Source: Sphingobacterium sp. BN32
Lineage (GTDB): Bacteria; Bacteroidota; Bacteroidia; Sphingobacteriales; Sphingobacteriaceae
Assembly (NCBI RefSeq): GCF_030503615.1
Contig: NZ_CP129963.1
Span: 3,224,001-3,288,000, forward strand
Direction: 5' to 3'
Length of the DNA stretch: 64,000 nucleotides
Below, piece by piece: positions 22,547 to 37,459 of this stretch. The notes beneath the pieces were generated by a model. It did no database searches and was not told the DNA's origin. It saw only the letters and a program-made list of their open reading frames with translations. Positions within the stretch are counted from its first letter, which is position 1. Each line of letters starts with the position of its first letter. The translations under genes were made by a program, and so were the position numbers.

Positions 22547-23860
22547 TTATTCCTCGTTGTCGTCGTTTGCTGTTTCCACCAGATCAAGCTTCACAAACTC
22601 GATATTCTGTTGTGTTTTCTTCATGATCGTGAAACAGTAGCCCAATGCCTCAGTGCTGTCGCCCACATCGGGGATACGCTCAAAGACATGGCTCACCAAG
22701 CCTGCGATCGTATCGTAGTCTGAACTTTCCGGAAGCTCCAATGGCAGGTAGCCATTCGCATCATGAACGCTTGCTCCGGCATCCACCATGAACTCTGTTT
22801 CCGAGATCTGCTCCACTACTGGAGTTTCTTCATCATACTCGTCCTGGATCTCTCCAACAAGCTCTTCAACGATATCTTCCAATGTCACCATACCGGCGGT
22901 TCCTCCGAATTCATCCAATACAAAAGCGATTTGGATGCGCTTCAACTGAAACTCTGTCATTAAATCATTGATTTTCTTCGTCTCAGGAATGAAATAAGGC
23001 TTGCGCATGATGTTTTTCAACACAACTTCCTTACCCTTTACTAACAAAGGAAGAATGTCCTTCGTATGCACAACACCAATAATTTGGTCAATATTATCAT
23101 CGTAAATTGGAATACGAGAGTATCCCTCTTCCGTTACGGTCTCGATAAAGTCTTCTGCAGTTTCGTCTTGTTCTACGGCTACAATCTTCGTACGTGGAAC
23201 CATGATATTCTTTACGATACGTTCGTTGAAATCAAATACGTTTTTGATCAACTCATGCTCGGAATTGTTCAAAGCACCGCTTTCTTTTCCTTTTTCCAAA
23301 AGATACTGCAGTTCTTCCGACGAGTGACTAGCTTCATGTGCACTCACTTGAATTCCGATCAATCGTAACAAGAAATTAGCGAATCCGTTCAATAAGTAAA
23401 TGATCGGTCTAAATACGTAATAGAAGAATTGCAATGGAATTGCCACTTTCATCGTCGTTGCCACCGGCTTCTGTATCGCAATCGACTTTGGTGCTAATTC
23501 ACCGAATACAATATGCATAAAGGTGATGATACTGAAGGCCAACACATGACCTAAGTTAGTCGCCAATTTACCGGACAGCTCAACATTGAACCATCCAAAA
23601 ATTTGATGAACAATCTGGGTCATAACCGCCTCTCCGACCCATCCAAGGGCAAGAGACGCGAGCGTAATACCTAACTGCGTAGCAGCAAGATAACCATCCA
23701 GATGTTCTGTTATATTCTTCGCGATTTGCGCTACTTTACTTCCTGATTTAGCCTGGAGTTCTATCTGAGAAGCTCGAACTTTCACAATTGCAAATTCAGC
23801 TGCAACAAAAAAACCATTAGCCAGCACTAAAAAAATAGTCCAAAAAATATCAATTGCCAT
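22547..23860 (-). CDS. CNNM/CorC (HlyC-type) membrane protein with CBS pair
   Basis: A 437-residue inner-membrane protein. Residues 1-190 are a DUF21 transmembrane domain ([18 protein letters not shown], then several hydrophobic helices). Residues about 205-325 hold a CBS pair ([38 protein letters not shown]). Residues 335-430 are a CorC/HlyC transporter-associated domain, preceded by [21 protein letters not shown]. Family members are linked to Mg2+ (and Co2+) efflux or tolerance; the hemolysin label is historical. Its start overlaps the exported pyrophosphatase gene by 11 bases, which ties their expression together. GldE-type gliding proteins share this layout, but no gld genes are nearby. 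Confidence 0.88.
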
Positions 23861-24473
23861 TAGTTAGGTCTTTATTTCCGAATTGTGTTTTGTATAGTTC
23901 TAAACTCTCTAATATAACATTTTGGGCATCAGTTTGCCCAGAAATATTTTCAATTTTTATCGACTTGTTATCGATGGATTTATAGGTCTGAAAGAAATGG
24001 GTGATTTCTTTCATGCTATGAGGGGGAAGTTCTGAAAGATCATTCAGATAATTTAGGCTTGCGTCATTCTTGGCGACAGCAATGATCTTGTCATCTTGCT
24101 CGCCAGAATCAAGCATGCGCAAAACACCGATAACCTTCGCATCAACGAGCGAATACGGTTCTAGGTCTTGCGAACATAACACTAAAATATCTAGGGGATC
24201 TTTATCACCACAGTAGGTTTGTGGGATGAAACCATAATTAGTTGGATAGAATACCGAAGCATTCAGTACCCTATCCAACTTTAATAGACCCGAGGTCTTA
24301 TCAATTTCGTATTTCGCTCTAGAACCTTTACTTATTTCAATGACAGCAGTTACTACTTTCGGAGCTTCATTGCCCGGAGAAACCTGATGCCAAGGATGTT
24401 GCTGAGCATTTGCAGAACTAATTCCGACAAACAGCAACAGTATTATGGTCCAGAGCCTATCGACGTCGTCCAT
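23850..24473 (-). CDS. exported soluble inorganic pyrophosphatase paralog
   Basis: A 207-residue family I pyrophosphatase preceded by a hydrophobic signal-like segment ([18 protein letters not shown], residues 7-24). After the signal it is co-linear with the upstream cytosolic enzyme and about two thirds identical by eye. The catalytic set is retained: [34 protein letters not shown] and [12 protein letters not shown], giving the acidic Mg2+ ligands, Lys and Arg. So it should be active outside the cytoplasm, or be membrane-held. The N-terminal region before the hydrophobic part is acidic (MDDVDR), unusual for a Sec signal. It starts eight bases after the cytosolic gene and overlaps the CorC-like gene: a tandem duplication with relocation. 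Confidence 0.82.
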
Positions 24474-24481
24474 ATTGATGG

Positions 24482-25024
24482 TTATTTGTTTCGAATCTCC
24501 TTATTGTACAATTCAACGCTTTCTAAAATAATGTTTTGCGCGTATGAACGTCCATATAAGTTTTCAATCGTCACGTTTTTACCTTCAAGGGCTTTATAGT
24601 CCTGGAAGAAACGAACGATCTCTTTCATAGTATGTGGAGGAAGTTCTGATAAATCGTTGATGTAGTTAACCGACATATCGTGCTTTGCAACCGCAATAAT
24701 TTTATCATCTTGCTCGCCATTGTCGATCATGTGCATAACACCGATAACTTTAGCCTCGATTAAGCTCATCGGATAAACATCAACTGAACATAAAACAAGA
24801 ATATCCAAAGGATCCTTATCATCACAGTAAGTCTGTGGGATAAAGCCATAGTTGGCAGGATACATTACGGAAGAAAATAGGACGCGGTCCAACTTGATTA
24901 ATCCACTATCTTTGTCGATTTCGTATTTCGCTTTTGAACCTTTAGGAATTTCGATAATAGCATTCACGGAATTAGGCAAGTCTTCTCCGGGAGAAACTTG
25001 ATGCCAAGGATGTTGTGTACTCAT
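24482..25024 (-). CDS. ppa: cytosolic inorganic pyrophosphatase
   Basis: A 180-residue family I soluble pyrophosphatase that hydrolyses PPi to phosphate in the cytoplasm, pulling biosynthetic reactions forward. Motifs: [13 protein letters not shown] near residue 25, [23 protein letters not shown] near 55-77 with the metal-binding DxDPxD cluster, GEQDDKI near 105. There is no signal peptide. It lies six bases downstream of dedA and eight bases upstream of its signal-bearing twin. Confidence 0.94.
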
Positions 25025-26968: not shown

Positions 26969-27682
26969 TTACGAAGCGCCTTCTTCTTCCTCCTCTTCAC
27001 TGATAAATCGGTATCCAAGACCTCTTACAGTTTGCAGATAATAAGGCTTATCCGGATTCGTCTCGATCTTCTTACGTAGGCGAACCACGTGCATATCCAA
27101 GGTGCGGGTGTTCACATTGGAACTGTAACCCCAAACAACTTCCATCAACTCTTCACGAGTAATATCTTTCCCTTTATTTTGCAAGAAATGAAGCAAAATA
27201 CGGTTCTCCAATATCGTAAGCTCGATCTTCTTACCATCTCTGATCAACGAATGCACATTAGGATGATGCTCCGTATCACCGAAGTAATACACTTCGTTTT
27301 GAACTTTCGGCACAAAGAAGCGCACTTTGTTCTCGATCATAGCCACCAATACATCCATATTGAACGGTTTGGTGATATAATCCGTCACACCGTAGCTATA
27401 CGCGTCGATCTTATCAATATCCTGTGATTTTGCAGTCATCATGATAATGATGTTTTCAAATCCGGCTTTGCGGATTCCCTCGCAGACTTCGATCCCTTCT
27501 TTGCCAGGGAGCATCCAGTCGAGCAATACAATATCAGGAGACGATTCTAAGATCAACTTTTCAGCCTCCAAACCGTCGCTACATTGGATCACATTGTAGT
27601 TCTCAGTTTGAAGTCGATGGCTTACAAGAAAACGCAAATTATCGTCGTCCTCTACAACTGCAATAGTTATTTCTTTGTTCAT
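26969..27682 (-). CDS. OmpR-family response regulator (RprY-like)
   Basis: A 237-residue DNA-binding response regulator. The receiver (1-125) has the acidic pair EDDD near residue 11, phospho-acceptor Asp55 in IVLLDWMLPGKEG, Thr in MMTAKSQ and Lys in TKPF. The winged-helix output domain (about 135-228) has LTILENRILLHFL, DITREELMEVVWG, NTRTLDMHVVRLRKKIE and TVRGLGYRF. It ends with an unusual acidic tail (EEEEEE). It lies 16 bases behind the histidine kinase gene, its obvious partner, in an operon headed by an S9-like pseudo-peptidase. Confidence 0.94.
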   Translation of the reverse strand: MNKEITIAVVEDDDNLRFLVSHRLQTENYNVIQCSDGLEAEKLILESSPDIVLLDWMLPGKEGIEVCEGIRKAGFENIIIMMTAKSQDIDKIDAYSYGVTDYITKPFNMDVLVAMIENKVRFFVPKVQNEVYYFGDTEHHPNVHSLIRDGKKIELTILENRILLHFLQNKGKDITREELMEVVWGYSSNVNTRTLDMHVVRLRKKIETNPDKPYYLQTVRGLGYRFISEEEEEEGAS

Positions 27683-27698
27683 AGTTAAATACTAGGGT

Positions 27699-29357
27699 TT
27701 ATCTTGGAAATATCAATGTAAATACGGTTCCTTCACCTTCAATGCTACTTACTTTAATCTCTCCGCCCATAAATTCAGTAATTTCTTTACAAAATGCCAG
27801 TCCTAATCCTACACTGCCGCTTTGATTGAACTGGTTCTTAACTCTATAAAATTTCTTAAATATATTCCTAAGCTCGTTTTTATTAATTCCAATTCCTTTA
27901 TCCGAAAACTGAATCACAAAATTCTTCTTATTTTGTTCTACACTAATATCTATAAATTTTCTTGAAACTTCGGAATATTTATAGGCATTATCAATCAAGT
28001 TTTGGAATACCGAATTTAACAAAATCGGATCGGTATACATACTGCTATCCACGTCGATTTTGGAAGTTAAATTCAAATCTGGATATTTAATCTTCGTCGC
28101 TGCAAATATCTCCTCGCAAAAACTGTTCAAATCAACGTATTCTCCCTTAAATTTAAGCGATTTATTTTCTATCTGCGTGAAAGACAGTAGTTTATTCATC
28201 AAATTATTTAACTTATCCGCTTCCTGATCCAAGATTTTACCATACATATGTCGTTCCTGATCAGAAATCTTATCCGCACTTTTGATGTTGTTACCAGCAA
28301 TCTTAATCACGCTAACAGGCGTCTTAAATTCGTGGGTCAGGTTATTGATGAAATCATATTGCAATTGAAACAACCTGCTATTGATCGCAATATTTCGATA
28401 AATCAAGTAAACAATTAATAGCAAAATCGCATACAGCAACGAAACGCCTAACACCACCGGAAAGAACTGTCTATTAATCTCTCCACGCAAGAACTGTTCC
28501 GATGAATCAAATTGTAGCTTATATTCTGATAATGCGCCCGCCAGCGGCATCTCTGTACTGATAAAACCTTCCTCTTCGGTCAGGTTAGGATCAGCAATCG
28601 CCAAGACGCTTATTTTCTCATATAAACGTGGCTGAACGTTCTCAATCTTGATCTTTGCGGGGTTTATCTTGTAAACGAACAAATCCTGATCATAGGCAAC
28701 ATCGTTCGTCACGGTATCTTCCATCAACGTTTTATACGCTCGCAACGTACTCACACGAGGGATATTCAAATAAGTGACTTTTCCGGGCACTGTATTATAA
28801 AATATACGATAAATATCATTCTCCGTCAGCGAAGTCGAGTCGTCCAACACGTCCAAAAAGTTCACCATCTTAATAGCCATATTGTTAAAATCGTCCGAAG
28901 TCGGTCGATTTTCCGTTTCATCTATCCGGTTCCGAAGCAATTTATGACCCTCGTCCAATTTGAAAGAGTAAATCGACTGCGGGAAAATCAACAGGTTCTG
29001 AAAACGAACACCTCTAACGGCACTATTCTGATTGGTGAAAAGGACGTCGTAAAACACAACCTCATCAACAAAAGGATTTTTTCGAAGTATCTTTTCAGCA
29101 TAGGTAACAGCATGTACAGAATCTAGATAGCCCTGATAGTTAGAGACCTCCGAAATGCTATTGTTAAAGAAATTATTGAATGGTTTAAGGGTTGCATCGA
29201 AAACATCGACCTTGCGGTTATAAAATTCAGATTCGACGTAATTTGACATCATCACACGAGCCAAGAATACAGCGATGATGTAAAGAATGGTCAGGAAGGC
29301 CACAAAGGCAACCAACAAACCCAAATTTTTCCGGTATCTACTCGTTTTTTTGATCAT
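27699..29357 (-). CDS. sensor histidine kinase with large periplasmic domain
   Basis: A 552-residue membrane kinase. TM1 is at about residues 13-35 and TM2 at about 298-318; the 260 residues between form a periplasmic sensor domain of no recognised family. The cytoplasmic part has the phospho-acceptor His342 in NNLTHEFKTPVSV, an N box (FQNLIDNAYKYSE), G1 (DKGIGI) and G2 (GSVGLGLAF), all intact. It is eight bases downstream of the S9-like lipoprotein gene and 16 bases upstream of the response regulator gene, so it very probably phosphorylates that regulator. The signal is unknown; the co-transcribed lipoprotein is a candidate ligand or sensor subunit. Confidence 0.92.
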   Translation of the reverse strand: MIKKTSRYRKNLGLLVAFVAFLTILYIIAVFLARVMMSNYVESEFYNRKVDVFDATLKPFNNFFNNSISEVSNYQGYLDSVHAVTYAEKILRKNPFVDEVVFYDVLFTNQNSAVRGVRFQNLLIFPQSIYSFKLDEGHKLLRNRIDETENRPTSDDFNNMAIKMVNFLDVLDDSTSLTENDIYRIFYNTVPGKVTYLNIPRVSTLRAYKTLMEDTVTNDVAYDQDLFVYKINPAKIKIENVQPRLYEKISVLAIADPNLTEEEGFISTEMPLAGALSEYKLQFDSSEQFLRGEINRQFFPVVLGVSLLYAILLLIVYLIYRNIAINSRLFQLQYDFINNLTHEFKTPVSVIKIAGNNIKSADKISDQERHMYGKILDQEADKLNNLMNKLLSFTQIENKSLKFKGEYVDLNSFCEEIFAATKIKYPDLNLTSKIDVDSSMYTDPILLNSVFQNLIDNAYKYSEVSRKFIDISVEQNKKNFVIQFSDKGIGINKNELRNIFKKFYRVKNQFNQSGSVGLGLAFCKEITEFMGGEIKVSSIEGEGTVFTLIFPR

Positions 29358-29365
29358 GCCGAAGG

Positions 29366-31249
29366 CTATTTCAAATTCTCAGCTAAAAAACGCTCTATCT
29401 CTTGGTAGTATTCAACGACATTTTCTTCGTTTCTAAAACGCTTACCTTCGTCTTTCTTAAAGATGTATCGCACAGGAACCTGGTTGCTTTTCAATTTGCT
29501 GACGAATTGATTCGCATCCGTAACGGATGTGTACTTATCTTTCCCTCCCTGGAAATATAAAATCGGAATACGCACCTTGTCTGCATGGAAGATTGGCGAA
29601 ATCGCCTGGAACAACTCCGATTCCTTCTCCGGATTTCCTATGATTCTATAATAAAGTTGCACATAATGCTTTAAATGCGGTGGGATTTCCCTGAAATAAG
29701 TAAATAAATTACTATATCCGGAGGATGAAATAGCACAACGATACATTGGATTAAAGACCGACGCATACAATGCGGAGTAGCCTCCGAAGCCAGCGCCCAT
29801 GATCGCGATCCTGTCCTTATCGGCTATTCCCTGATGAATCAACCAGGCAACACCATCCGATATATCCGATTGTATTTTTCCGCCCCATTCTTTGAAACCC
29901 GCGGCCCAAAACTCCTTGCCATAACCAATAGACCCTCTATAATTTACTTGGAACACTGCGTAGCCACGATTCGTCAGAAACTGAACCTCAGCATCAAATC
30001 CCCACTCATTGCGGCGATTGGGTCCATCATGAACTAGCACCACTACCGGGCAGTTCTTTTTTCCTGATTTTGGATAAGTAATGTACGCATGAATGGTTTT
30101 GTTATCCCGAGACTGGTAGCTCACCTCTTCCATCGCGTTGAGCGGCAAATCCTTAAGCTTCGGATTATCCTCCGAAAGCAATTTCAACTCCTTATTACTT
30201 CTATTGAAATAATAAAGCTCGCCAGGATGTACATCGCTATAGGCTCTTATGATAAAACCATTCAAAGAAGTATCATTATCAAAGAAATCAATCTCCATCT
30301 CCGGAAATTGAGACTTCAAATACTCATAAGCCTCTTTGAATGAAGGGTTGATCATCGACTTCTTATTTCTATTGACAAATGAACTGGTATACAAAAGCTC
30401 TTGTAGATTACTCGAATACCCCTCCACATTCAAATCGGCTAATTTATCCTCATATAAATTGCGTATTTCCTTCCCTTGCGATGCGTCAAATTCCACTAGA
30501 GACATCTTATCTCGCTGGTCGTTGGATAGCGCGTATATCAGCGACTTCGAACCCTTCACAAAGCCCATCGGAATAAATGTAGTCTCGAAATCATTGCGCA
30601 TCACCTCGCGGAATGGCTCTGCCTCCGACGCTCGATAGAGAATAGACTCCTGCACGCTATCACTAGTCAGTGCCAGACGAACCACACCATCCGGTGATCC
30701 GATCCAATTGACAACATTTCCCGGATTTTTATAAATCATCTCGCTAGGGCGACCATCCAGATGAACGCGGTACAAATCAAAAAGTGAGGAATCACGCTTG
30801 TTCATCCCTACGACCAAGCTTCCATTGCTGCTTCGCAGTGGACCAATCCAACGCAGCTTCACATCATCCGTTTCTACCAACGGATGTCGCTCCTCGGTGT
30901 GTACATTGATACGAAACAAACGCAAGCTATCGCTGATCGATTGTGTATTCGAAAAAATTATCTGCTCATCATCTGCCCAAAAGAATCCTTGCACGTTAAG
31001 GCTGGACTGATAGGTAAGCTGTTTGGAAGAATCGGGCTGAATTAAATCAAGAACAAAAATATTCTTACAATGATCGTGCACCCCTAAGTATGCAATCTTA
31101 CTGCCGTCGGGCGACAGTCGGAAATTACTCTTGTCGGGTTTTACAAAGAAGTCCTCCACAGGTATGATTTCATCGCGTTCATTTTTTGACTTACAGGATG
31201 CTGCAGCCAACAAAACACTCACAAGAAAAATCAAAATTCTAAAATTCAT
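29366..31249 (-). CDS. S9 prolyl-oligopeptidase-like lipoprotein, catalytically dead (pseudo-peptidase)
   Basis: A 627-residue lipoprotein: start taken at MNFRILIF (31249) because that gives a clean signal with lipobox AASC; an upstream in-frame ATG at 31273 adds eight residues. Residues about 40-350 are a beta-propeller-like domain (FRLSPDGSKIAYLG, NVVNWIGSPDGVVRLAL); 380-627 are an alpha/beta-hydrolase fold (CPVVVLVHDGPNRRNEWGF, GYAVFQVNYRGSIGYGKEFW). The nucleophile elbow reads IMGAGFGGYS, with Gly487 where S9 enzymes have Ser. The catalytic His position reads DEGKRF, with Lys603 replacing His in the usual EGHxF. The Asp (GGKDKYTSV) remains. Two of three triad residues are gone, so peptidase activity is not expected. 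It is the first gene of the operon with the kinase and regulator. A binding or sensing role is inferred. Confidence 0.85.
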   Translation of the reverse strand: MNFRILIFLVSVLLAAASCKSKNERDEIIPVEDFFVKPDKSNFRLSPDGSKIAYLGVHDHCKNIFVLDLIQPDSSKQLTYQSSLNVQGFFWADDEQIIFSNTQSISDSLRLFRINVHTEERHPLVETDDVKLRWIGPLRSSNGSLVVGMNKRDSSLFDLYRVHLDGRPSEMIYKNPGNVVNWIGSPDGVVRLALTSDSVQESILYRASEAEPFREVMRNDFETTFIPMGFVKGSKSLIYALSNDQRDKMSLVEFDASQGKEIRNLYEDKLADLNVEGYSSNLQELLYTSSFVNRNKKSMINPSFKEAYEYLKSQFPEMEIDFFDNDTSLNGFIIRAYSDVHPGELYYFNRSNKELKLLSEDNPKLKDLPLNAMEEVSYQSRDNKTIHAYITYPKSGKKNCPVVVLVHDGPNRRNEWGFDAEVQFLTNRGYAVFQVNYRGSIGYGKEFWAAGFKEWGGKIQSDISDGVAWLIHQGIADKDRIAIMGAGFGGYSALYASVFNPMYRCAISSSGYSNLFTYFREIPPHLKHYVQLYYRIIGNPEKESELFQAISPIFHADKVRIPILYFQGGKDKYTSVTDANQFVSKLKSNQVPVRYIFKKDEGKRFRNEENVVEYYQEIERFLAENLK

Positions 31250-33170: not shown

Positions 33171-34163
33171 TTAATTTTTTAACGTATCCTGTGCAGCTTC
33201 TTCTTTTGCTTTCTTCTTGAAGAATCCTCTTAGGAGGAAGTTACTTTGTAAAGCTTCCATATTTTGATCAAGTTTCTCTGTTCCCATGTTCAGGTTCTTC
33301 AAGATCTGCTTAATCTCATTAGCGGCTTCCGCATCATTGGTAAGCACACCAATAGCATTGTTCTTATCGTTCAAACGCGCTGTTGTCTCGTTCAGGTTCG
33401 CCATTAATGCCGAAGCAGTTTGCGTTACGCCCTGCAACTGTGCTGCAGACTCGCGTAAACTTGCAAACACTTGCGTATCGGTCGATAAATCATGAATTAA
33501 ACCCTGATTCGAATTCAATTTATTGGTCAATGTCACCAAATTATTGACAGCAACATTCGCTGTACTCATCGTTGAATTTAGCGAATTAACAGACTTTCTC
33601 AAGTTATTGGCTATTTCTTCATCGGTCATTAATGCCCCAACAGCCCCTTTTCCTTCCACCATCTGCTGAGATAGGGTCGCAAAGTTCTTTGTAATTTCTA
33701 ACAAGTTTTCATTATTTACTTGCAAAGTAGAAAGCATCGCTTCCATACCGCCAGAAACACCCGATTTAATCACATCCCCATCCTGTACGGCAGGAATATT
33801 TTCGCTACCCCCAACCAAACTGATGATTGCATTACCGATCAAACCGTCTGAACTCAACGTCGCAATAACGTCCTTGCGGATAAATTGGCTAGATTTCTCC
33901 TCCACGCTCATCATAACTCGCACATTCTCGACGCTCTCAAACTTAATTTCTTTGATGATACCAACCTTGACACCGGAGAACCAAACGTTGTTACCAACCT
34001 TTAGGCCCTTCACATCCTTGAAATAAGTTGTCAATGCCAGATTCTTGCTAAATTTATTTTGTTGTGTACCCAACACTAAAATACCAGCCACCAAAATAAC
34101 TAATCCTATCAAGGTAAATAAACCTACGATAATCGATCGTTTTCTCTCTTCTGTTGTTGCCAT
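33171..34163 (-). CDS. MCE-domain lipid-transport protein (MlaD-like)
   Basis: A 330-residue protein with one N-terminal membrane helix (residues about 11-32, IIVGLFTLIGLVILVAGILVLG) and a periplasmic MCE domain (about 38-120: LTTYFKDVKGLKVGNNVWFSGVKVGIIKEI, LSSDGLIGNAIISLVGG). The long C-terminal part is helical (repeated Asn/Leu heptads), expected to form a bundle or tunnel across the periplasm. MlaD is the substrate-binding hexamer of the Mla phospholipid transport system between the inner and outer membranes. Gene order permease-ATPase-MCE matches the Mla core; MlaB, MlaC and MlaA are not seen. Confidence 0.9.
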   Translation of the reverse strand: MATTEERKRSIIVGLFTLIGLVILVAGILVLGTQQNKFSKNLALTTYFKDVKGLKVGNNVWFSGVKVGIIKEIKFESVENVRVMMSVEEKSSQFIRKDVIATLSSDGLIGNAIISLVGGSENIPAVQDGDVIKSGVSGGMEAMLSTLQVNNENLLEITKNFATLSQQMVEGKGAVGALMTDEEIANNLRKSVNSLNSTMSTANVAVNNLVTLTNKLNSNQGLIHDLSTDTQVFASLRESAAQLQGVTQTASALMANLNETTARLNDKNNAIGVLTNDAEAANEIKQILKNLNMGTEKLDQNMEALQSNFLLRGFFKKKAKEEAAQDTLKN

Positions 34164-35929: not shown

Positions 35930-37459
35930 ATGAAAAACATAAGGACATACAGCTTTCTAGCATCCCTGATCTTAATGATCGTTGGGGTCTTTAAATCCAG
36001 CGAAGTATCTGCACAAGGATACGATGATGTCACCTTTGATGACTTCTATTATGAGCTGGATCCTTATGGTGATTGGGATAATGACCCAGAATATGGGAAT
36101 GTATGGTATCCTGATGTCGAAAGAGACTTCAGACCCTACGGAACCAACGGGTATTGGTCAATGACCGAATATGGAAACACTTGGGTTTCCAATTACGATT
36201 GGGGTTGGGCACCCTTCCACTATGGCCGTTGGGTTCACTCCTCTCGCCGCGGATGGGGCTGGGTTCCGGGATACGAATGGGGACCAGGATGGGTGAGCTG
36301 GAGATCCGGTGGTGGATACTACGGATGGGCACCAATGGCGCCTGGAATAAGCGTGAATGTATCGTTTAATTTGCCAATAGATTTATGGGTATTTATCCCT
36401 ACAGCGCGCATCTATGACCCTTATATGCACAGACACTGGTCGTATGGTTCTAGATACCGCAATATCTATAACAGAACAACCGTTATTAACAATACGTATA
36501 TTGTCAATAACCACCATTACTACAGTGGACCATCGCGTCGCGATATTGAACGCAATACTGGTCGCCGCGTAGATGTACGTAACGTACGTTTCGACAACAA
36601 CAGAGGCGCAAGCCGTGCCGACCGTCGCAACGTATCGATCTTCCGCCCGAACCGCGACAACATGGAGCGTATCAGAGGCGAGCGTGGCAACAGCAGCAGA
36701 AATGGTCGCGTAGAAAACAGAGGCAACTCCCGCGTAGAAAACAGAGGCAACTCCCGCGTAGAAAACAGAGGAAATGCGCGTGTAGATAATAACAGAAACT
36801 CGCGAATTGAAAATCGCAACGATAGCCGCACAAACCGTTCAAATGAAAGCCGTGTAAACCGCAACGATCGTTCGAACAGCGATTACACGATCAAACGTAA
36901 CGAGCGTGGGCAACGTGAAATGCACATCGGAAACTCAAACGGAAGAAACGAGCGTTCTACCGTAACTAGACAACCAAACAGCACACGTACAGATCGTGAA
37001 GCGGGAAACATTCGCAACGAAAACAGATCGAACAGAGAAAGCAACCGTCAGATTCAAAGAGAGCGACCAACTCGTCAGATTGGTACTTCTGAATCTCGTC
37101 AGCCACGCTCTTCGAGCCAGGAACGTACAGCATGGGATCGCGGCGCTTCATCTAGACCATCTAGAAGCGAAGCAGCTCCACAACGCATGGAACGTAGCCC
37201 ACGCCAATCAGCGCCTAGCTCGCGTGAGCAACGTGCGCCGCAACAACGTGAACAACGTGCGCCACGCATGCAACAACAAGAGTCGCGTCAGCCGAGCCGC
37301 GTTTTCCAAGCGAGCAACACACAACGAAGCAGCATGGAAAGACCATCGCGTTCATCTCATGTTGAACGTAGCTCGTCTAACGTAAGCCGCGAATCGGGAA
37401 ACCGCTCAAACGGCGGTAGTGCACGCGTAGAACGTGGAAACGGACGCGGAAGAAACTAG
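35930..37459 (+). CDS. secreted DUF6600-like protein with Arg/Asn-rich repeat tail
   Basis: A 509-residue exported protein (signal cleaved after EVSA). Residues about 35-165 contain FYYELDPYGDWDNDPEYGNVWYP and repeated Trp/Gly/Tyr units (GWAPFHYGRWV, GWGWVPGYEWGPGWVSW, GWAPM), the pattern of the DUF6600 domain, of unknown function. Residues 190-509 are low-complexity, rich in Arg, Asn, Ser and Gln, with an eight-residue repeat RVENRGNS (24-base DNA repeats at 36707-36826). The tail is strongly basic, which could bind nucleic acid, lipid A or acidic polysaccharide. The frame shows no stop, so the tail is translated. Base use in the tail is more GC-rich than in the neighbouring genes. It is monocistronic, with a hairpin terminator. 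Confidence 0.78.
   Translation: MKNIRTYSFLASLILMIVGVFKSSEVSAQGYDDVTFDDFYYELDPYGDWDNDPEYGNVWYPDVERDFRPYGTNGYWSMTEYGNTWVSNYDWGWAPFHYGRWVHSSRRGWGWVPGYEWGPGWVSWRSGGGYYGWAPMAPGISVNVSFNLPIDLWVFIPTARIYDPYMHRHWSYGSRYRNIYNRTTVINNTYIVNNHHYYSGPSRRDIERNTGRRVDVRNVRFDNNRGASRADRRNVSIFRPNRDNMERIRGERGNSSRNGRVENRGNSRVENRGNSRVENRGNARVDNNRNSRIENRNDSRTNRSNESRVNRNDRSNSDYTIKRNERGQREMHIGNSNGRNERSTVTRQPNSTRTDREAGNIRNENRSNRESNRQIQRERPTRQIGTSESRQPRSSSQERTAWDRGASSRPSRSEAAPQRMERSPRQSAPSSREQRAPQQREQRAPRMQQQESRQPSRVFQASNTQRSSMERPSRSSHVERSSSNVSRESGNRSNGGSARVERGNGRGRN
36707..36826 (+). repeat. 24-base tandem repeats inside the DUF6600-like gene
   Basis: Two perfect and one slightly changed copy of CGCGTAGAAAACAGAGGCAA plus CTCC (36707, 36731, 36755), followed by two diverged copies up to 36826. 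They encode RVENRGNS-type octapeptides, so the number of units could change by slippage without breaking the frame. Confidence 0.8.

Follow-up and report, generated by a model that had tools for sequence, protein, structure and literature searches.

An S9 peptidase-like lipoprotein with a repeatedly lost catalytic triad, encoded in one operon with a histidine kinase and a response regulator in Sphingobacteriaceae

Accessory lipoproteins of histidine kinases are already known, as are S9 pseudo-enzymes serving as subunits of other proteins. The QseG-QseE-QseF system of Enterobacteriaceae comprises a lipoprotein, a kinase and a regulator encoded in one operon, and QseG binds the periplasmic part of QseE and activates the kinase (PMC6075780; PMC12691602). 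Three components of the same kinds occur in the window, the whole 64,000-nucleotide stretch of the Sphingobacterium sp. BN32 genome analyzed here, but their order is S9-like lipoprotein-kinase-regulator instead of kinase-lipoprotein-regulator, and the regulator is of the OmpR/PhoB type, whereas that of the Qse system acts at sigma-54 promoters (PMC6075780; PMC12691602). The accessible parts of these papers do not describe QseG as a former enzyme, which the window lipoprotein appears to be. Kinase binding is documented for QseG, whereas we infer it for the window lipoprotein. In Actinobacteria, a phylum other than that of the window, the accessory lipoprotein LpqB of the two-component system MtrAB interacts with MtrB and lowers its activity in M. 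smegmatis; an S9 origin of LpqB is not stated in the accessible part of the source (PMC5845573). Neither QseG nor LpqB is named among the listed Pfam and NCBIfam matches of the S9-like protein. The lpqB gene lies after the kinase gene. Mammalian DPP6 and DPP10 resemble the window protein in having kept the S9 fold and lost the catalytic serine; as far as the accessible text of the sources goes, DPP10 carries a glycine at the serine place and is an ancillary subunit of Kv4 channels, a role that the fly ortholog combines with enzyme activity (PMC4873792; PMC4350108). These proteins belong to the eukaryotic DPP4 branch and have an ion channel as partner, whereas the window protein has a histidine kinase as neighbour. 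We know of no reason to expect a Kv4 channel partner in bacteria. By analogy, our best reading is that the window triad resembles QseG-QseE and mammalian DPP10-Kv4 in its working and is a member of neither.

The solved acylaminoacyl peptidase 5l8s is the best match of the window protein in sequence (3.6e-39) as well as in fold. The initial annotation had proposed a lipobox-bearing S9 homologue of 627 intact codons with glycine for the catalytic serine, lysine for the histidine and only the aspartate left, and each of these points holds. The open reading frame starts with ATG at 31249 (the gene-caller start being a TTG eight codons earlier), and Pfam assigns Peptidase_S9 (PF00326; 2.6e-38, residues 424-635 of the TTG-started ORF). 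In the alignment with 5l8s, the serine and the histidine of the enzyme lie opposite Gly487 and Lys603, respectively, and the surrounding segments read AIMGAGFGGYS and KKDEGKRF, as against GxSxGG and EGHxF of S9 enzymes. The AF2 model (pLDDT 74.5) returns 5l8s as its best Foldseek hit, with S9-type peptidases and hydrolases among the best 50 matches. Judged by sequence, the window protein appears to be an S9 family homologue, with the propeller and alpha/beta-hydrolase fold of the family and an incomplete Ser-Asp-His triad, and no peptidase. Its lipobox-like stretch ..LAAASC ends at Cys19, and the aligned column is cysteine in 145/145 genomes, which counts in favour of the three-component sensor discussed below; the strict lipobox pattern is found in 126/157 rows and a looser one in 141/145 genomes. 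The window genome contains 23 PF00326 matches, and 10 of the 11 strongest could be aligned as S9 proteins. Nine of these ten keep the serine (the histidine alignment being ambiguous in one of the nine), and the S9-like gene is the sole one without it. The nearest named Sphingobacterium record is 80% identical in the S9-like protein.

The eight-base spacing to the kinase gene, with the response regulator gene behind it, is confirmed (29358-29365), and the gap between the kinase and regulator genes is 16 bases. The periplasmic part of the kinase, previously put at 260 residues, comes to ~266 residues by the hydrophobic stretches in the sequence. The H, N and G1 boxes of the window kinase are intact, as they are in 92/92 kinases counted, again in favour of a sensor, and the regulator comprises a receiver and a Trans_reg_C domain. 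The lipoprotein gene, identified as such by its motif, is placed in one operon with the two by spacing and synteny. Membership in RprXY, PhoBR, MtrAB or another named system was rejected, since the NCBIfam equivalog cut-offs are not reached (RprY 126.9 bits against 370, PhoB 194.6 against 296.2, MtrA 194.4 against 300, PhoR 142.1 against 334.2; comparison with the best 25 of 82 and the best 25 of 97 families). Regarding the sensor domain, the AF2 model (pLDDT 63.8) reports a best Foldseek E of 5.5e-3 and a best Z of 8.1 (rmsd 4.2 over 125 residues), near background level, in the comparison with double-CACHE (dCACHE/PDC) folds, and weakly suggests a dCACHE-like fold.

Table 1. Features of the S9-like lipoprotein, kinase and regulator operon (positions in the window).
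Feature	Coordinates	Strand	Basis or remark
S9-like lipoprotein gene	29366..31249	-	627 codons; Gly487, Asp571, Lys603; catalytic residues lost
Signal peptide to Cys19, lipobox-like ..LAAASC	31193..31249	-	sequence; Cys19 column
Beta-propeller domain, ~residues 42-375	30125..31126	-	AF2 model; Foldseek best 5l8s; rate covariation with kinase sensor
Alpha/beta-hydrolase domain, ~residues 385-627	29369..30097	-	PF00326; AF2 model; Foldseek
Gly487 codon GGC, catalytic-serine place	29789..29791	-	sequence and alignment
Asp571, retained triad residue	29537..29539	-	sequence
Lys603, catalytic-histidine place	29441..29443	-	sequence and alignment
Gap between S9-like and kinase genes, 8 bases	29358..29365	-	sequence
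Sensor histidine kinase, 552 aa, phospho-acceptor His342	27699..29357	-	Pfam; H342, N-box, G1 conserved 92/92
Kinase periplasmic sensor domain, residues 34-299	28461..29258	-	no Pfam family; weakly dCACHE-like fold
OmpR/PhoB-type response regulator, 237 aa	26969..27682	-	Pfam, NCBIfam

Elsewhere in the window, tandem inorganic pyrophosphatase-like genes lie at 23850-24473 and 24482-25024 (minus strand), their model matches being below the curated cut-offs; the first has a signal-peptide-like start, and one of the two may be periplasmic. The gene at 35930-37459 (plus strand) encodes a 509-residue protein with a signal-peptide-like start and a Tyr/Trp-rich N-terminal part, the rest being a long low-complexity stretch rich in Arg, Asn and Ser; it has no NCBIfam match at 0.01.

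An S9-like match at 1e-60 is found in 290/301 genomes of the family, a threshold that also admits the paralog L002, so that a genome with the paralog only would count. Among the 11 genomes with no match, five (group g11) possess the kinase and regulator with the S9-like gene absent from the fetched stretch (upstream genes were read in two), one (G153) shows the S9 gene in part, at the edge of a contig, and five have no whole-kinase match at 1e-30, of which one is more than 90% complete and another (G009) matches in the kinase core only. Three g11 genomes stand beside S9-bearing groups on the kinase tree, so the absence of the S9 gene looks like loss. At 34% identity or more, and wherever the flank sufficed, the kinase follows the operon-type S9-like gene, which counts for the sensor reading. 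The exceptions at this identity are L091 (contig edge), two stand-alone copies of g5 (three loci: L092 and L257, which are the same copy, and L258) and relatives in other families. The conservation of the gene triad is borne out: the regulator follows the S9-like and kinase genes in 162/162 entries long enough (some genomes being entered twice), likewise in favour of a sensor, and the S9-kinase spacing is -4 to 43 bases in 156/157 rows, with start codons chosen in the script. These rows (145 distinct genomes, 11 named records and the window locus repeated as L001) were restricted to loci whose kinase shares the strand of the S9 gene and whose S9 frame reaches at least 580 residues, so that adjacency within them holds by choice. 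Dropped from the count were G137, G184 and G113, with shortened or broken copies, and L049, which lies at a contig edge; G259 has only a contig-edge piece of the S9 gene. In G137 (L157) and G184 (L158), two single-contig genomes of the window genus, the S9 gene carries stops or a frame change next to an intact kinase, through either real decay or sequencing error. Together with the absence in g11, these broken copies indicate that the S9 partner is not indispensable, which we count against the sensor reading.

A TPR-protein gene lies beside the operon (L142, L143 and others) in 17 of the 18 groups outside g1, g4, g16, g17 and g19, each of the 17 having at least one such genome; in the five groups named it was not found within the available flank. 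It is divergent where read, and occurs also in g11, which is devoid of the S9 gene.

The catalytic state of the protein varies in this operon slot. Ser, Asp and His are kept in 33 of the 145 genomes that have the S9 and kinase genes together and the triad is lost in 112, with residue 487 of the dead copies being Gly (105), Arg (4), Asn (2) or, in one copy without the His, Ser. Asp571 is kept in 144/145. Groups g6, g8, g13, g16 and g22-g25 are intact throughout, and g17, g18 and g21 are mixed. Gly487 with Lys or Arg at 603 is found in 65/65 genomes of the window genus counted, which excludes a sequencing error or local decay in the window strain, and Gly487 with Arg603 in 9/9 of its sister group g4. 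The initial annotation had taken orthologs keeping Ser and His in the same slot as the mark of local decay; such orthologs do exist (33/145), but the pattern is one of repeated loss.

The S9 tree comprises 121 rows (94 operon, 27 stand-alone) and was computed by a quick method, with SH-aLRT support only and after removal of the three triad columns. All operon copies group in a single clade (support 100), and the active and dead states require 12 changes by parsimony on this tree; if no regain is allowed, the triad is lost 14 times, Ser 18 times and His 9 times. If branches below 95 support are collapsed and resolved so as to keep losses few, 10 remain, and the same labels require 12 changes on the kinase tree. 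The change counts on both trees rule out a single ancestral loss; we put the number of catalytic losses at 10 or more, with a best estimate of 12-14. The proposal of a pseudo-enzyme stands as regards the intact gene and a fold retained under selection, but not as one ancient pseudo-enzyme. Five genomes have the His without the Ser and one the Ser without the His, within a dead clade, which suggests that the serine is usually lost first; in the latter copy, L250 (G168), the serine was either retained or regained. All 33 of 33 intact copies encode the serine by AGT or AGC. A single step turns these codons into ones for Gly, Asn or Arg, and mutation may thus partly account for the choice of Gly. 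Given the branch lengths, the concentration of losses in the operon clade has a P of 1e-3 (14 losses) or 7e-3 (10 losses) against the 27 stand-alone rows, and of 6e-3 or 2.5e-2, respectively, against the 20 near ones, a result of only moderate strength.

Outside the family, searches with the whole kinase (1e-60) and the sensor-domain profile (1e-4), each of which recovers the same ten family genomes, return 0/285 other genomes of the class (20 of the 285 are listed by group name, all from other families). S9 relatives are present at 1e-75 in 52 of these 285, with up to 48% identity to an intact operon copy. Twenty of the 52 matches were fetched and 18 aligned (L320 and L333, cut by contig ends, were excluded); all 18 have Ser, Asp and His, and none has the operon kinase within ~1.5 kb. 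Adding nine family copies, the triad is intact in 27/27 aligned stand-alone relatives, and these branch outside the operon clade, in favour of the sensor reading. One stand-alone relative of another family, L314, is followed by a gene of 213 residues and by one for an OmpR-like regulator, possibly by chance.

We favour, with a probability of roughly 0.6, a three-component sensor in which a recruited S9 peptidase became an accessory subunit of the kinase, catalysis then being dispensable. Beyond the points already named, it is favoured by the 33 genomes that retain the triad and the repeated losses in the others, by the absence of the sensor profile from the 285 other genomes and by the low omega of dead pairs given below. 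Early in the family, an active periplasmic S9 peptidase would have come to precede a kinase-regulator pair and gained a second job, docking with its propeller on the kinase's periplasmic domain and setting kinase activity. Once this job was selected, peptidase activity would be dispensable and repeatedly lost, usually the Ser first, mostly to Gly, and later the His, with the fold, lipid anchor and operon retained.

A link between the two proteins is visible in their rates of evolution. Branch lengths were estimated on a single fixed tree topology for one control and four parts of the S9 and kinase proteins in 64 genomes (125 branches), 16 of 80 genomes being excluded for no match (11), a weak match (4) or no usable kinase row (1). 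The control, an MlaD-domain protein (PF02470; window 33171-34163), lies by its coordinates near the operon in the window genus and elsewhere in other groups. With all other parts held (for propeller and sensor these are the kinase core, hydrolase and MlaD), the partial correlation of propeller and sensor is 0.44, which counts for the sensor reading; it is 0.40 for propeller and hydrolase and 0.25 for sensor and kinase core, pairs within one protein, and 0.26 (p 0.004) for control and kinase core. Values for hydrolase-sensor (0.11), control-sensor (0.13) and control-propeller (-0.02) are not significant. The propeller-sensor correlation is 0.33 in terminal, 0.51 in internal and 0.46 in non-g1 branches; in mid-length branches it drops to 0.21 (p 0.035) and in the 14 terminal branches of active lineages it is absent, and we count both against the sensor reading. 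Among the 50 dead terminal branches it reaches 0.48, but control and sensor also correlate (0.32, p 0.02). In an earlier run on 181 branches, which had no control, the correlations were 0.51 (propeller-sensor) and 0.08 (hydrolase-sensor). Since the single control evolves more slowly than either the propeller or the sensor, the correlation could in part reflect fast evolution as such. We count this against the sensor reading too, together with the correlations of the control itself. The covariation suggests that the kinase sensor domain is connected with the propeller and not with the former catalytic domain, and is support, short of proof, for an interaction of the S9-like protein with the kinase.

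If the S9-like protein were instead an output of the system, co-regulated with the kinase and doing a non-catalytic job in the envelope (as inhibitor, chaperone or peptide carrier) with no kinase contact, its place as the first gene of the operon, the persistence of kinase and regulator without it in g11, and the intact-triad copies in the same slot, as of an enzyme controlled by the system, would all be natural. This rival, rather unlikely in our estimate and nonetheless the strongest, does not predict that the propeller covaries more with the sensor than with the control (bootstrap difference 0.34-0.78, kinase core held), and a dozen catalytic losses at omega below 0.08 are not expected of an output enzyme.

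Selection was gauged by NG86. The 88 dead pairs have omega values of 0.014-0.073 with a median of 0.037, and the 20 active pairs values of 0.037-0.083 with a median of 0.053, these being the pairs left of 380 and 59, respectively, when those with dS undefined or at least 2.5 are excluded; the pairs overlap and dS is high. The dead copies are under strong purifying selection. Within the hydrolase domain, the surroundings of the old active site have a mean entropy of 0.68 in g1/g4, the window genus and its sister group, against 0.99 for the rest of the domain, and 0.85 against 1.07 in active copies. Dead lineages outside g1/g4 show almost no such contrast (1.05 against 1.15), and residue 603 varies freely there. 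The non-redundant sequences of g1/g4 have Gly487 in 56/56, and Arg (41) or Lys (15) at 603. Slow decay of an enzyme no longer needed, its gene persisting through operon or translational coupling to the kinase, would account for the many losses of the Ser, the broken copies in G137 and G184, the drift of the pocket outside g1/g4 and the missing gene in five g11 genomes. We consider it improbable in view of the omega values of the dead pairs, the whole genera fixed in the dead state with frames of at least 580 residues (145 genomes, the short G137, G184 and G113 having been dropped) and the invariance of Gly487 in g1/g4 and of Cys19 throughout. Catalysis through other residues, to which Asp571 and, in g1/g4, the invariant GxGFGGY elbow with a conserved basic residue 603 might lend themselves, is very improbable, since most dead lineages lack both a nucleophile at 487 and a base-like His at 603, and 603 varies freely outside g1/g4.

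Within the three-component sensor, the pocket may have different fates. Its drift outside g1/g4 argues against a general ligand-binding role, and the protein of those dead lineages probably acts by its body alone. In the window genus and its sister group, where the pocket is tightly conserved and the His replaced by Arg or Lys, a peptide-like ligand may still be bound without being cut. More tentatively, the system could be a family-wide sensor built on an enzyme captured once as a subunit of the kinase and made a pseudo-enzyme at least 10 times in parallel, the emptied site of the window genus with its conserved Arg/Lys being a non-consuming receptor for a peptide-like ligand of the envelope, from which the propeller would report to the kinase; we give this fuller version clearly less than even odds.

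Among the best-ranked matches in the open-access literature, no description was found of an S9-type pseudo-enzyme paired with a histidine kinase. What is new is this combination in bacteria, together with catalytic losses that recur within a single operon slot and can still be seen there. To our knowledge, most discussion of pseudo-enzymes treats them as single old events. Here, one orthologous operon gene displays the steps side by side, active, with the Ser lost, with Ser and His lost, and with the gene itself lost, which allows a direct test of whether the protein became a signalling subunit before catalysis was lost. The S9-like lipoprotein is also a candidate input partner for a kinase that is present in 200/201 genomes searched in the order.
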